Position numbers and translations under genes: made by a program
Notes under the pieces: generated by a model
What the model was told of the DNA's origin: nothing
What the model saw: the letters and a program-made list of their open reading frames with translations, nothing else
The model's database searches: none
DNA from: Tissierellales bacterium
GTDB taxonomy: Bacteria; Bacillota; Clostridia; Tissierellales; Tissierellaceae
NCBI GenBank assembly: GCA_014360205.1
Contig: JACIXZ010000005.1
Coordinates: forward strand, 62,001-126,000
Direction of reading: 5' to 3'
DNA length: 64,000 nt
In this document: positions 33,361 through 61,870 of the stretch, one piece after another
How the letters are laid out: each line of letters starts with the position of its first letter
Position numbering within the stretch: position 1 is the stretch's first letter

Positions 33361-33984
33361 GTGAAATTGAAAAAAAGATACATATTTTTAATATTAATAA
33401 TCATCTTATTAATTCCAATATTATTTTTTAGAAAAGAGATTAAATTTTTATGGTCAATTGCAAACTCAAGAATAACTCAATCTAAAATTGAAGATGAAAT
33501 AATATTAGAAAACCCATTAGAAAAATATATAAATGATATCGATTCAAACATTAGTGAAAATACTAATACAAATAGTTCAGTTAAAGTAGATAACACAAAA
33601 CTTAAGAATTCTAAAATAGACAAAAATGTAAATACATTGTCTATGGATGAAATTGCTGTAATATATAACCCAAAATTCAAATTACTAGAAGATGAATTTA
33701 ACAAGACACTCGATAATTTAGTTGCTGATGCCATAGCAGATTATAATACTGGAAATTACAGCAAATTTGATCTTGCTAGGTTTTATCTGGATAAGGGTTA
33801 TAAAATCGAAAAAGAATCTGATATAAAATTTTATGCATTAGTAGATGAATTAGAGAAAGATCTCAAGAAAAACTCTCTAGACCTTTCTCTAAAAGATGAA
33901 ATAGTAAGTTACTATAAAAATGTCAAATCAGTAAAGAAAAATAGTCTGATAGACAAGGGAATGGCACTTGTAAATGCAAAATAA
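33361..33984 (+). CDS. Unknown membrane-anchored protein
   Basis: I do not recognise this 207-residue protein. Residues about 6-23 are a transmembrane anchor (KKRYIFLILIIILLIPILFF), residues about 45-95 are a low-complexity Asn/Ser/Asp-rich linker, and the rest (100-207) is a charged, helical domain with LEDEFNKTLDNLVADAIADY and LDKGYKIEKE. No cysteine is seen and there is no cleavable signal, so it is probably anchored with the domain outside. Start is a GTG at 33361 behind AGAAGGA; a TTG at 33367 is the alternative. It ends one base from the convergent amidase gene, with no terminator between them. Confidence 0.65.
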   Translation: MKLKKRYIFLILIIILLIPILFFRKEIKFLWSIANSRITQSKIEDEIILENPLEKYINDIDSNISENTNTNSSVKVDNTKLKNSKIDKNVNTLSMDEIAVIYNPKFKLLEDEFNKTLDNLVADAIADYNTGNYSKFDLARFYLDKGYKIEKESDIKFYALVDELEKDLKKNSLDLSLKDEIVSYYKNVKSVKKNSLIDKGMALVNAK

Positions 33985-33985
33985 T

Positions 33986-34456
33986 TTATATTTTATCGTA
34001 AAAGTAAGTCCATTCTCTCCACCCCATATCACTCATTCTTTTCGGACATATTTTTAATGAAGCATCAAAATGTCTTACCACTCTGGATTTCTCTAAATCA
34101 TATTTCATAAGGAGAGTCCTAATTAAATACAATCCTTTTTCTTTAGTTATATCCCAATCATTCCCCTGATTTATGCACAATTCAATTCCTATAGAATTAG
34201 AATTAGTTATGCCAAACTTTCCTTTGCCATCTCCACAATGAAAACTTGAATTATTATCTTCCACAAGTTGAAGTATATGATTTTCATCAATTATATAATG
34301 ACATGAAGCAAAGACTTTTGGTCTATTAAAATACATATAATGATTAATGGCATTTGCAGTTTTATTTTCATTTCCGGTGTCATGAATTACAATATATTTT
34401 ATTTTCTCTTTATTTCTAGCAGAGAAATTATTCTTTATTAACATCTTCTCAATCAT
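33986..34456 (-). CDS. N-acetylmuramoyl-L-alanine amidase, Amidase_2 type, no signal peptide
   Basis: A 156-residue amidase domain that should cut the bond between muramic acid and the stem peptide. Zinc ligands by comparison with T7 lysozyme are H25 (in VIHDTG), H129 (in VRHFDAS) and C137 (in ICPKRM). It has neither a signal peptide nor a wall-binding domain, like phage endolysins, so it would need a holin or lysis to reach the wall. The ATG at 34456 overlaps the sigma-factor gene upstream (GGAGGGATATA ribosome site inside it), so the two are co-transcribed. No phage structural or holin gene is nearby. Confidence 0.85.
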   Translation of the reverse strand: MIEKMLIKNNFSARNKEKIKYIVIHDTGNENKTANAINHYMYFNRPKVFASCHYIIDENHILQLVEDNNSSFHCGDGKGKFGITNSNSIGIELCINQGNDWDITKEKGLYLIRTLLMKYDLEKSRVVRHFDASLKICPKRMSDMGWREWTYFYDKI

Positions 34457-35012
34457 TATATCCCTCCATCATCTCTCTAAGTTTTTTATGAGCTCTTCTT
34501 TTTAATTCAAGCACAGTTCTATAATTGATATTGTGTATTGTACTTATTTCATCGATAGATAATCCCTTATAGTAAAACTCTAGTATTATCTCTTTTTCTT
34601 TTAAAGATAAATTTTTAAAAAGAAGTTGCATTCTTGTAGAAAAATCATCAATAACCACTTCTTCTTCTAAATCATATTCACTCGGTATTAAATCAGCCAA
34701 CTCAATTCCCTCCTCATTTTTTTGATTTAATGTTAAAATTTCCCTATTGGTATTTAGCTTATTCAAGTAAAAATATTTTAATCTTGTCTTAACATAACCA
34801 CTAAAATGCACATTTTTACTCTTATCAAAATCTCTGATACATTCTAAGACAACTACTTTCCCATCTTCTATTAAATCCTCATATTCATAGTAGCAATTGT
34901 AGTATTTTTTTATTGACGAAATAATCAATGGATAAAATTTTTCTACTAATTCGTATTTAGCATCATCATCATTTTTAATCGATTCTTCATAAAGTATCTC
35001 GATTTCTCTCAC
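34449..35012 (-). CDS. Small alternative sigma factor
   Basis: A 187-residue sigma-70 family protein. Region 2 is at about 20-85 (YEDLIEDGKVVVLECIRDFD, then SGYVKTRLKYFYLNK) and region 4 at about 128-182 (LSLKEKEIILEFYYKG, HTH at 150-172); region 3 is missing, so it is a compact type. It resembles clostridial TcdR/UviA-like or YvrI-like sigma factors more than the housekeeping one, but I cannot assign a subgroup. Start is a GTG at 35012, six bases after AAAAAGGAG. It is co-transcribed with the amidase. No clear sigma-A promoter is seen in the 68-base gap upstream, which fits self-directed or activator-dependent transcription. Confidence 0.82.
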   Translation of the reverse strand: MREIEILYEESIKNDDDAKYELVEKFYPLIISSIKKYYNCYYEYEDLIEDGKVVVLECIRDFDKSKNVHFSGYVKTRLKYFYLNKLNTNREILTLNQKNEEGIELADLIPSEYDLEEEVVIDDFSTRMQLLFKNLSLKEKEIILEFYYKGLSIDEISTIHNINYRTVLELKRRAHKKLREMMEGYND

Positions 35013-35027
35013 TATATGCTCCTTTTT

Positions 35028-35041
35028 AAAGAGCGCTCTTT
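35028..35041. promoter_or_regulatory. Perfect palindrome in front of the sigma-amidase operon
   Basis: AAAGAGCGCTCTTT is a perfect 14-base palindrome ending 15 bases upstream of the sigma factor start codon, next to the ribosome site. It may be an operator or a small RNA stem; there is no T-run to make it a terminator. Confidence 0.45.
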
Positions 35042-35130: not shown

Positions 35131-35712
35131 CTATTTTATTTTTTCTAATATGTCATCAATTTTCATAAAAAGCCTTGCTATATCTGACTTCATGGCTGGT
35201 GAATCTTCTTTTTGATAATATAGCAATGCTTCAGTTACTTTGTCTTTCTCGACATCTTTATGTAATTTCTCTACTAATTGTCCATTCTTAAACTGTTTTT
35301 CAGCAGTATTTAAAGTACATAAAAGCTTAAACTCGTTCATATTTTTTAATCGAATAATGACATCTCCATTAGTTGAATATATTTTATCTATAAAGCTTAA
35401 TTTGAAAAATCCCATTGCCCCATCATCTTTACCAATTGGTTCCCTTATTTTTAGTTGTATAAAAATAAGACCTGTTGATATAGCAACAGGTAATTGTGAT
35501 TTGCTCGATAACATCTTGCTATAGTATTTGTTAGATGCTTTCATGTCGAATTGATAATGTATGCATAAATTTCTAATCACAGTTTTGATAGTCTTATATA
35601 TAAGTTTCTCTCCATCTGTATAGTATAATTTTGTTGAGTTTCCTAAAATACTGTCATAATATGGGATAATAGCTACTAGCTTTTCATCATATATTTCATC
35701 CGATTTTTGCAT
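35131..35712 (-). CDS. ComK-like transcription regulator
   Basis: A 193-residue protein with the length and pattern of Bacillus ComK (192 residues), the competence master regulator. Aligning by eye: LVAIIPYYD near the start corresponds to ComK's IAVLPEE, SSKSQLPVAIS to its SHKPPIMVD, FFKLSFIDKI to WISHVHVKEF, and NMNEFKLLCTLNTAEKQF to NGKTMELPISYNSFENQ. Identity is low, so this is a structural-pattern call, not a certain orthologue. The ATG follows AGGAGGT. The gene has a strong promoter with an embedded LexA box and its own terminator, so it is a one-gene, DNA-damage-inducible unit. The chief alternative is an unrelated protein of similar size. Confidence 0.6.
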   Translation of the reverse strand: MQKSDEIYDEKLVAIIPYYDSILGNSTKLYYTDGEKLIYKTIKTVIRNLCIHYQFDMKASNKYYSKMLSSKSQLPVAISTGLIFIQLKIREPIGKDDGAMGFFKLSFIDKIYSTNGDVIIRLKNMNEFKLLCTLNTAEKQFKNGQLVEKLHKDVEKDKVTEALLYYQKEDSPAMKSDIARLFMKIDDILEKIK

Positions 35713-35756: not shown

Positions 35757-35785
35757 AATATATCAGAACATTTGTTCGATGTCAA
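35757..35785 (-). promoter_or_regulatory. Sigma-A promoter with LexA box in the spacer, for the comK-like gene
   Basis: Minus strand: -35 TTGACA (35780-35785), 17-base spacer, -10 TATATT (35757-35762). The spacer holds CGAACAAATGTTCT (35765-35778), matching the Gram-positive LexA consensus CGAACRNRYGTTYC at 13 of 14 positions. LexA bound here would block RNA polymerase. The -35 element begins three bases past the proB stop codon. Confidence 0.85.
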
Positions 35786-61160: not shown

Positions 61161-61172
61161 GCTATCCTTTTA
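61147..61172 (+). terminator. Terminator of the O-antigen-ligase-like gene
   Basis: AAAGGGATAGC and GCTATCCTTT (one G-T pair) form a stem across the stop codon and are followed by TTTTAATTT. The stop codon of the YvrJ-family gene lies at its edge on the other strand. Confidence 0.75.
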
Positions 61173-61316
61173 ATTTAGCTTTGTTTCTATGACTTTTGAT
61201 AACTCTGTTATACTTTTAGTAAGCTCATTTAGCTTTCCTTCGATCCTTACTAATAAAAATAGCGATATGACGATAGGAAAACCTAAATTAGCGATATTGG
61301 TATAGAGTTCTTCCAT
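61170..61316 (-). CDS. YvrJ family small protein
   Basis: Translation from the ATG at 61316 gives 48 residues beginning MEELYTNIANLGFPIVISLF and continuing LLVRIEGKLNELTKSITELS, matching the YvrJ family: a short N-terminus, one transmembrane helix (about 10-26) and a charged C-terminal helix. GAGGTGGGAGAA precedes the ATG. It is third in a compact set with a DUF1659 and a DUF2922 gene, a recurring Firmicutes trio whose function is not known. Confidence 0.85.
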   Translation of the reverse strand: MEELYTNIANLGFPIVISLFLLVRIEGKLNELTKSITELSKVIETKLN

Positions 61317-61360: not shown

Positions 61361-61579
61361 TTAAAATTCTATTTCTGTAGTTGATGTAGTGACTATATTG
61401 GCTTTATTTGGTGCTGTCAGCAAACCATTTCTTGATACAAACACATCAAGTCCAGCAAGATTTGTCATAGCCTGATATATTTCTTCTTGTGTTAAATCTT
61501 CTCTAGGATTGTCTAAAGATATGCTATATGCTTTGTTTGCTGCATCTAAAAACTGCATGATTAATTTTCTTTTTTCCAT
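61361..61579 (-). CDS. DUF2922 family protein
   Basis: A 72-residue protein: MEKRKLIMQFLDAANKAYSI at the start, then LDNPREDLTQEEIYQAMTNL and a C-terminal FVSRNGLLTAPNKANIVTTS. The pattern fits DUF2922, small proteins of unknown role that accompany DUF1659 and YvrJ genes. No signal, helix anchor or cysteine is seen, so it should be cytoplasmic. AAAGGAG precedes the ATG. A stem-loop follows its stop. Confidence 0.8.
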   Translation of the reverse strand: MEKRKLIMQFLDAANKAYSISLDNPREDLTQEEIYQAMTNLAGLDVFVSRNGLLTAPNKANIVTTSTTEIEF

Positions 61580-61599: not shown

Positions 61600-61809
61600 T
61601 TATTCAGTTACAATAGCTTCTTCGATTCTTTTAACATTTACAAGTGCTTTTTCTTGTAATCCTGAAAGTATCTCTCCTGCTGATAATATGTTTTCGTCAG
61701 TTGCTGTAAGATTGATGTTTGAATAAGTCTTTGATTCAATTTTTTGTTTTCCGTCCACTACACCGCCATCAAGCTCAAGCTTTAAACTTTTCTTTGTTAT
61801 CTCAACCAT
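61600..61809 (-). CDS. DUF1659 family protein
   Basis: A 69-residue protein with KSLKLELDGGVVDGKQKIES and KTYSNINLTATDENILSAG, matching the DUF1659 family. It is first of the trio and has GGGGGTGAGAAA before the ATG. It lies 105 bases downstream of the S-layer-like gene's stop, beyond that gene's terminator, so the trio is probably a separate unit or fed by read-through. Its role is unknown; small size and no anchor suggest a cytoplasmic helper. Confidence 0.8.
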   Translation of the reverse strand: MVEITKKSLKLELDGGVVDGKQKIESKTYSNINLTATDENILSAGEILSGLQEKALVNVKRIEEAIVTE

Positions 61810-61870
61810 TTTCTCACCCCCCTATACTCTATATATATGATTTAGAGGCAATATGTACTACATTTAGGCA

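Follow-up and report, generated by a model that had tools for sequence, protein, structure and literature searches.

What is a sigma factor gene doing in one overlapping operon with the gene of a cytoplasmic amidase, next to an SOS gene, in a bacterium of the order Tissierellales? We analysed a window of 64,000 nucleotides around these genes (contig JACIXZ010000005.1, positions 62,001 to 126,000 of the forward strand), for which an earlier note, made from the letters alone, had proposed a damage-triggered circuit of self-lysis or product release. Our best reading is an SOS-linked holin-endolysin module of the ComK/SigO type that would serve programmed lysis or release, and we hold it tentatively, with a confidence slightly short of even. 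In the following sections we describe the genes of the locus, their regulatory signals and their neighbours in related genomes, and we weigh three other explanations where the evidence touches them.

The sigma-amidase block and its conservation

The features of the locus are collected in Table 1. The open reading frames and the Pfam table agree with what had been described before, that is, a sigma factor that lacks region 3 and whose gene overlaps an Amidase_2 gene. The Pfam matches of the sigma factor are to sigma-70 region 2 (2.9e-9) and region 4 (1.9e-6), with none to region 3 in the match table, and the two reading frames share 8 nt. The SOS gene that had been placed beside the sigma gene is the ComK-like reading frame. 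The remark that no phage gene is nearby also stands, as none was seen by inspection among the window reading frames of at least 120 aa. No bacteriocin gene was seen in the window either. The Pfam scan of the window comprised eleven proteins.

Table 1. Genes and regulatory signals of the locus, in positions of the window
Feature	Positions	Strand	Remarks
Amidase_2 (N-acetylmuramoyl-L-alanine amidase), phage-endolysin type	33986-34456	-	156 aa
Sigma-70 family factor	34449-35012	-	187 aa, GTG start
Perfect palindrome AAAGAGCGCTCTTT in the sigma gene leader	35028-35041	-	3' arm complementary to the ribosome site
ComK-like regulator (divergent ComK family)	35131-35712	-	Pfam ComK E=0.07, below cut-off
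Predicted SOS promoter of the ComK-like gene	35757-35785	-	TTGACA 35780-35785, LexA box 35765-35778, TATATT 35757-35762
YvrJ	61170-61316	-	48 aa; Pfam YvrJ 1.2e-19; holin-like single-helix protein
DUF2922 protein	61361-61579	-	72 aa; Pfam 2.9e-23
DUF1659 protein	61600-61809	-	69 aa; Pfam 2e-19; model pLDDT 93.3
Candidate sigma promoter, AGTAC-N17-TATATA before DUF1659	61832-61859	-	motif score 10.9

Regarding conservation, the earlier note had suggested looking for the three-gene block in relatives, and the outcome was mixed. The block of sigma gene, adjoining amidase gene and ComK-like gene is present in 7/7 examined genomes of two genera, but none of the other 11 genomes in which the amidase had a match has it. 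In a set of 40 genomes the amidase adjoins the sigma gene in 5 of the 16 with any amidase match, all of them in these two genera, and two further genomes of the same genus also have the amidase beside the sigma gene. We therefore rejected an order-wide link between amidase and sigma factor. Regarding the other two genes, a close homolog of the sigma factor was found in 32 of the 40 genomes, the window's own included (best E at most 1.1e-18), and a ComK-like gene in 29, in 22 of which the sigma gene is at most 3 kb away. The gene order of several relatives is comFC, recD2, ComK-like, DUF2922, DUF1659, sigma and metK, with flagellar genes further out (comFC, recD2, metK and flagellar names assigned by inspection); where comFC, recD2 and the ComK-like gene follow each other in this way, YvrJ sits between the ComK-like and the DUF2922 gene.

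On the other strand (33361-33984, +) a 207-aa protein is encoded, with a hydrophobic N-terminal stretch and no family match above the cut-off. Its end is 1 nt short of the amidase end, and it has relatives in three other genomes (G001, G002 and G019).

The ComK-like gene and its LexA box

The LexA box consensus is CGAAC-N4-GTTCG, with 10 fixed letters. The box of the window, CGAACAAATGTTCT, lies between the TTGACA and the TATATT of the promoter of the ComK-like gene. Boxes with at least 8 of the 10 letters are present in 36 of the 47 distinct upstream regions of ComK-like genes, versus 1.3 expected from shuffles, and many of them overlap TTGACA and TATAAT-like elements. In the wider phylum a box of at least 9 letters precedes the ComK-like gene in 20 of 43 cases (0.12 expected), and DUF1659 is preceded by a box in 5 of 66 (0.22 expected). 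Furthermore, a LexA protein was found in 7/7 genomes of the two genera. With a box in its promoter and LexA in the genome, the ComK-like gene has the marks of a member of the LexA regulon.

Its tentative assignment to the ComK family (PF06338) comes from its relatives, since 15 of the 22 proteins of its family reach E<=0.01 (best 2.3e-12) and the window protein itself stays below the cut-off. In the wider set, 4 of the 43 ComK-like proteins match ComK at E<=0.001.

A single-chain counterpart of SigO-RsoA

The parallel drawn before to UviA, an SOS-related clostridial sigma factor, has to be corrected, because the sigma factor of the window is homologous to SigO-RsoA. Actually, its two halves are found as separate proteins at another locus (L369), where they flank YvrJ: a 210-aa protein matches positions 69-185 of the sigma-family profile (3.9e-13) and an 83-aa protein matches positions 4-68 (2.1e-6). 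The latter also matches the RsoA model NF041489 at 2.5e-5, below the cut-off of that model. Through these proteins and the model, region 2 of the window sigma factor corresponds to RsoA and region 4 to SigO. A UviA or group V toxin-type sigma model is absent among the best 25 of 87 NCBIfam matches. Judged by these homologies, the window sigma factor is the single-chain counterpart of the split SigO-RsoA, and we prefer this name to that of a two-subunit factor because it is one polypeptide with both halves and not two separate ones.

The surroundings differ as well. The window sigma factor has an SOS-boxed ComK-like gene and an amidase gene as neighbours, YvrJ shares its operon with DUF1659 and DUF2922, and there is no oxdC at the locus. 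At a further locus (L371) the neighbours are a SigO-like gene, YvrJ and a reading frame that matches the start of an oxalate decarboxylase model. In Bacillus subtilis, yvrJ is a stated target of SigO-RsoA (PMC8103513). In sorted competent cells of that species, rsoA and sigO appear with values of 8.7 and 3.9 in a table of differing genes (PMC7317962), which fits a tie between ComK and SigO.

Palindromes in the leader of the sigma gene

The palindrome of Table 1 had been proposed as the place where the ComK-like regulator acts on the sigma gene. This is unlikely: the palindrome lies in the sigma leader beside the ribosome site, downstream of a -10-like TAATATA element that recurs before the sigma gene in relatives; the paired motif to which it belongs occurs mainly at sigma genes; and the centre spacing of the pair varies (by inspection). 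It probably belongs to the sigma gene itself, as an element of its leader or as an operator.

When we considered the last 55 nt of 54 sigma upstream regions, the best palindrome had a half-length of at least 6 in 24 of them, versus 0.77 expected from shuffles. Many of these regions carry two short palindromes, one CCTAGG-like and the other GGAAGGCGCCTTCC-like, and the letters of the two change together between species (alignment A4). Of the 9 sites that one form of the pair has in the 40 genomes, 7 lie at sigma genes; the reversed control has 1 site. In its minimum-energy fold, the window leader has the 3' arm of the palindrome paired with the ribosome site; the folding energies of four leaders were not convincingly better than those of shuffles (z -1.59 to 0.40). 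The two co-changing palindromes might be a translational switch or an operator.

The DUF1659-DUF2922-YvrJ operon and its promoter motif

In relatives, AGTAA-N16-CTATATAA or a closely similar sequence stands before the DUF1659 gene. The motif is present in 21 of the 31 non-redundant DUF1659 upstream regions that were not fetched by the motif, and 200 shuffles gave a mean of 0.1 and a maximum of 1; when the 12 regions fetched by the motif itself are included, the count is 33 of 43. We consider this conserved motif as a non-sigma-A promoter and a candidate for recognition by the window sigma factor. With a matrix trained without the own genus, the window DUF1659 site is the third-best of the window, the two better ones being inside reading frames, and its score is below that of the lowest training site of other genera (13.9). 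The sigma-amidase operon is without the motif (best score 4.1).

The genome-wide look for target promoters that had been suggested before gave counts at or below control for two forms of the motif. The loose motif has 14 sites versus 15 in reversed controls in G000, 15 versus 17 in G001 and 11 versus 20 in G002, and the form AGTAA-N16-CTATDTAA has 83 sites versus 111 controls in the 40 genomes. The strictest form has 38 sites versus 24 controls in 249 genomes, with a match in 27 genomes and no site in the own genus; DUF1659 is the downstream gene in 12 of the 27 loci of this form. We do not regard a larger regulon of the sigma factor as established, given the counts at or below the reversed control in two scans and 38 versus 24 in the strictest. 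Some other motif sites precede a GH25-like endolysin gene (L173, in G035), an Amidase_2 gene that runs off its contig (L153), and DnaD-like genes (L149, L171 and L214). As possible sigma targets these are suggestive only, and they may be due to chance. Across the wider phylum the motif was not seen, with 1 of 66 DUF1659 upstream regions having it and 0.15 expected.

Several minor observations concern these genes. The 28-nt promoter site of DUF1659 has a second copy, identical in sequence (L127, G000:C22:3316-3343), which is located between a surface-protein-like and a transposase-like reading frame, by inspection, and not before DUF1659. One genome has tandem copies of the sigma, DUF1659 and DUF2922 genes together with four copies of the promoter motif (L175 and L176, G037:C1:2164000-2192000). 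At four loci where the sigma gene is adjacent (L298, L304, L323 and L335), DUF1659 has another similar upstream element, approximately GTCAGTCTATA by inspection, which hints at a different type of promoter. Regarding the proteins, the fold searches with DUF1659 gave weak matches only, with phi29 p6 as the best in the PDB (E 0.018); the model weakly resembles uncharacterised or dsDNA-binding phage proteins (best E 0.015-0.018, phi29 p6 included). No solved relative of the window DUF2922 protein was found by sequence search.

Competence as an alternative

The ComK-like regulator and the sigma factor could also form a competence switch, with the amidase as a late competence lysin, like LytA in pneumococcus. 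The amidase would then serve fratricide or DNA acquisition, and it would be made to release or admit DNA instead of killing damaged cells. The likeness of the regulator to the ComK family is in favour of this explanation, as are the ComEC present in 7/7 genomes examined, the comFC-like and recD2-like genes found by inspection beside the ComK-like gene in several relatives, and the positive values of sigO and rsoA in competent B. subtilis cells. LytA, furthermore, has no signal peptide, and a ComX promoter can drive its transcription (PMC12029793). However, the LexA box before the ComK-like gene argues for damage as the trigger, and the motif counts, which were not above control, give no sign of a larger sigma regulon. 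We consider the competence explanation unlikely.

YvrJ as a possible holin-like partner of lysins

The search for a holin gene that had been recommended was successful insofar as the same window encodes a holin-like protein, YvrJ, behind the conserved candidate sigma promoter. YvrJ is predicted to be one helix (pLDDT 94.5) and matches PHROG 4898, which has the label 'holin', at 1.5e-5; four of its relatives match the same group at 1.4e-7 to 1.9e-5. A BhlA-like protein belongs to a different PHROG, and the conservation of YvrJ is unusually high for a holin. We found three viral contigs with a YvrJ-like gene. By inspection, this gene is immediately before a lysin-like gene in one of them (L216), follows an amidase-like gene with one small gene in between in another (L215), and is among tail genes in L217. 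The tblastn searches with three versions of YvrJ and with DUF2922 in named phages gave nothing or weak matches (best 5e-3).

A YvrJ match was obtained in 85 of the 199 genomes that we sampled from the phylum. We took one locus each from 80 of them, with at most 5 kb on each side, and searched these with our own profiles; G000 and G002, which belong to the own genus, and G391, G398 and G352, which had weak matches, were left out. Some of the loci may be in prophages. DUF1659 was found in 65 of the 80 loci, DUF2922 in 65, a ComK-like gene in 41, Amidase_2 in 21 and a sigma factor of the window family within 5 kb in 11. The next gene after YvrJ is Amidase_2 in 20 of the 80 (at -60 to 150 nt), and in 17 of these 20 it is followed by a ComK-like gene. 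Among the other next genes on the same strand (n=26, by Pfam) there are four Peptidase_M15 and one each of Amidase_3, Amidase_2 and phage lysozyme. If these seven are taken as seven different proteins, a murein hydrolase is the next gene in 27 of the 80 loci, and 53 have no recognised lysin in that place. At the opposite end of the operon, our own profile found Amidase_2 as the gene before DUF1659 in 1 of 63 cases, and no murein hydrolase is among the best 25 of 70 Pfam families matched by 51 far-side neighbours. In two loci (L303 and L321) an amidase closely similar to that of the window is beside YvrJ and ComK-like genes. The exchange of lysins from unrelated families beside YvrJ makes these loci look like holin-endolysin cassettes, and such a likeness of gene content is not proof of holin action.

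The amidase and its origin

The amidase had been described as lacking a signal peptide, and its N-terminal hydropathy gives no sign of one: the best 12-residue mean in the first 35 residues is 0.02. The protein matches Pfam Amidase_2 at 9.1e-21 and an endolysin group of PHROG at 1e-39, and its closest solved structure is XlyA (3hmb, 4.4e-19). Its residues H25, H129 and C137 are on columns that are invariant in 30 amidases (alignment A5). All of these 30 match Amidase_2, 9 of them also match SPOR, and their best N-terminal 12-residue hydropathy is at most 0.8. With H, H and C as zinc ligands and no signal peptide by hydropathy, the window amidase belongs to the phage-type Amidase_2 endolysins.

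This type raises the question of whether the amidase is a prophage endolysin that was captured not long ago and is just carried along at the sigma locus, with no functional tie to the sigma factor or to YvrJ. We inspected 14 loci of amidase homologs outside the two genera, from 10 of the 11 genomes without an adjoining sigma gene, and 9 of them have phage-like neighbours, for example tail or holin genes, which is in agreement with a capture; at the other five, three of which come from one genome, such neighbours are not clear. Nevertheless, the place beside the sigma gene is kept in 7/7 genomes, whose amidases are 56-76% identical to that of the window and have intact zinc ligands, and other lysins lie beside YvrJ and ComK-like genes across the phylum, with the closely similar amidases of L303 and L321 among the examples. 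A capture of this kind is quite improbable in our opinion. A cytoplasmic amidase for wall recycling (AmpD-like) or for wall remodelling under stress control, instead of a lysin, would fit the missing signal peptide and a weak AmpD match (5.2e-6, far below the cut-off), but it is very unlikely because the best matches are endolysins and XlyA, 9 of the 30 compared amidases have SPOR domains, and M15, Amidase_3 or phage lysozyme fill the place after YvrJ in some loci.

As a side observation, one genome (G038) has three phage-type amidase copies near Rep-like and Mor-like reading frames (L178, L181 and L182; names by inspection), two of them beside small reading frames like DUF1659 and DUF2922.

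A proposed module for lysis or release after DNA damage

The SOS-linked holin-endolysin module could work as follows. LexA, through the box in the promoter, would repress the ComK-like gene until DNA damage frees it. The ComK-like protein and the SigO-type sigma factor encoded next to it would then switch the module on, in an order that we only presume. The sigma factor would read the AGTA-N18-TATATA promoter and transcribe DUF1659, DUF2922 and YvrJ; we infer this recognition from the linkage of the genes and from the transcription of yvrJ by SigO-RsoA in B. subtilis. The amidase is presumably co-transcribed with the overlapping sigma gene, and YvrJ, as a holin-like membrane protein, would let this cytoplasmic enzyme reach the wall. 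The outcome might be the lysis of a damaged subpopulation or the release of DNA and protein, for uptake by neighbours with ComEC. The locus would then be a rearranged form, in Soehngenia, of an SOS-linked holin-endolysin module which the host encodes and which is found repeatedly in the phylum.

Damage-triggered lysis or release, as proposed in the earlier note, is favoured by the co-conservation, the LexA boxes, the holin-like gene and the lysins beside YvrJ, but in the genomes searched the amidase adjoins the sigma gene in two genera only. Other results also weigh against our reading. In the window, 26 kb separate the amidase from YvrJ, and the motif is missing from the sigma-amidase operon; the window DUF1659 site scores below the training sites, and the motif is neither enriched genome-wide nor seen phylum-wide. 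The sigma factor is near YvrJ in only 11 of the 80 loci, and in 53 of them no recognised lysin comes next. 'Holin' is the label of a PHROG other than that of BhlA, and YvrJ is unusually conserved for a holin. The ComK-like protein of the window is below the Pfam cut-off, like most of the wider set at 0.001 (4 of 43 match). Finally, our confidence is lowered by the genome-wide counts, from which no further targets of the sigma factor can be established.

A broader view would be that DUF1659, DUF2922, YvrJ, a murein hydrolase without signal peptide, a ComK-family regulator and a SigO-type sigma factor form one phylum-wide lysis system, in which ComK ancestrally served SOS-triggered lysis or DNA release and the control of competence in Bacillus is a later specialisation. 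We regard this as rather unlikely in its full extent. The preferred reading of the locus offers a testable function for three families of unknown function (DUF1659, DUF2922 and YvrJ) and a possible reason why yvrJ is a target of SigO-RsoA in B. subtilis. It also links ComK with the SOS response, and it points to programmed lysis under damage as something that many Firmicutes may encode outside their prophages.

Known parallels

Among the matches listed in our literature searches on DUF1659, DUF2922, YvrJ and ComK with holin or endolysin, SOS, LexA and SigO, the titles and abstract openings do not describe the module. The nearest published parallel that we found is the UviA-UviB-amidase set of the clostridial Bcn5 loci (PMC9527704). 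Both have a sigma factor, a small one-helix holin-like protein and an N-acetylmuramoyl-L-alanine amidase, and the sigma factors are likened by gene content; however, YvrJ and the BhlA/UviB-type proteins are in different PHROGs, and the window has no bacteriocin gene that we could see.

The pneumococcal LytA is a lysin of the choline-binding type. The cinA-recA-dinF-lytA operon under ComX shares with the window an amidase without signal peptide, transcribable from the promoter of a competence sigma factor, but that sigma factor is a different one and four promoters are reported for lytA (PMC12029793). In the explosive lysis of Pseudomonas aeruginosa by the pyocin endolysin Lys, an endolysin of phage origin releases DNA and vesicles in a RecA-dependent way (PMC4834629). 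Lys is located in a pyocin gene cluster, whereas the window has ComK-like and SigO-like regulators, and we saw no phage genes in it.
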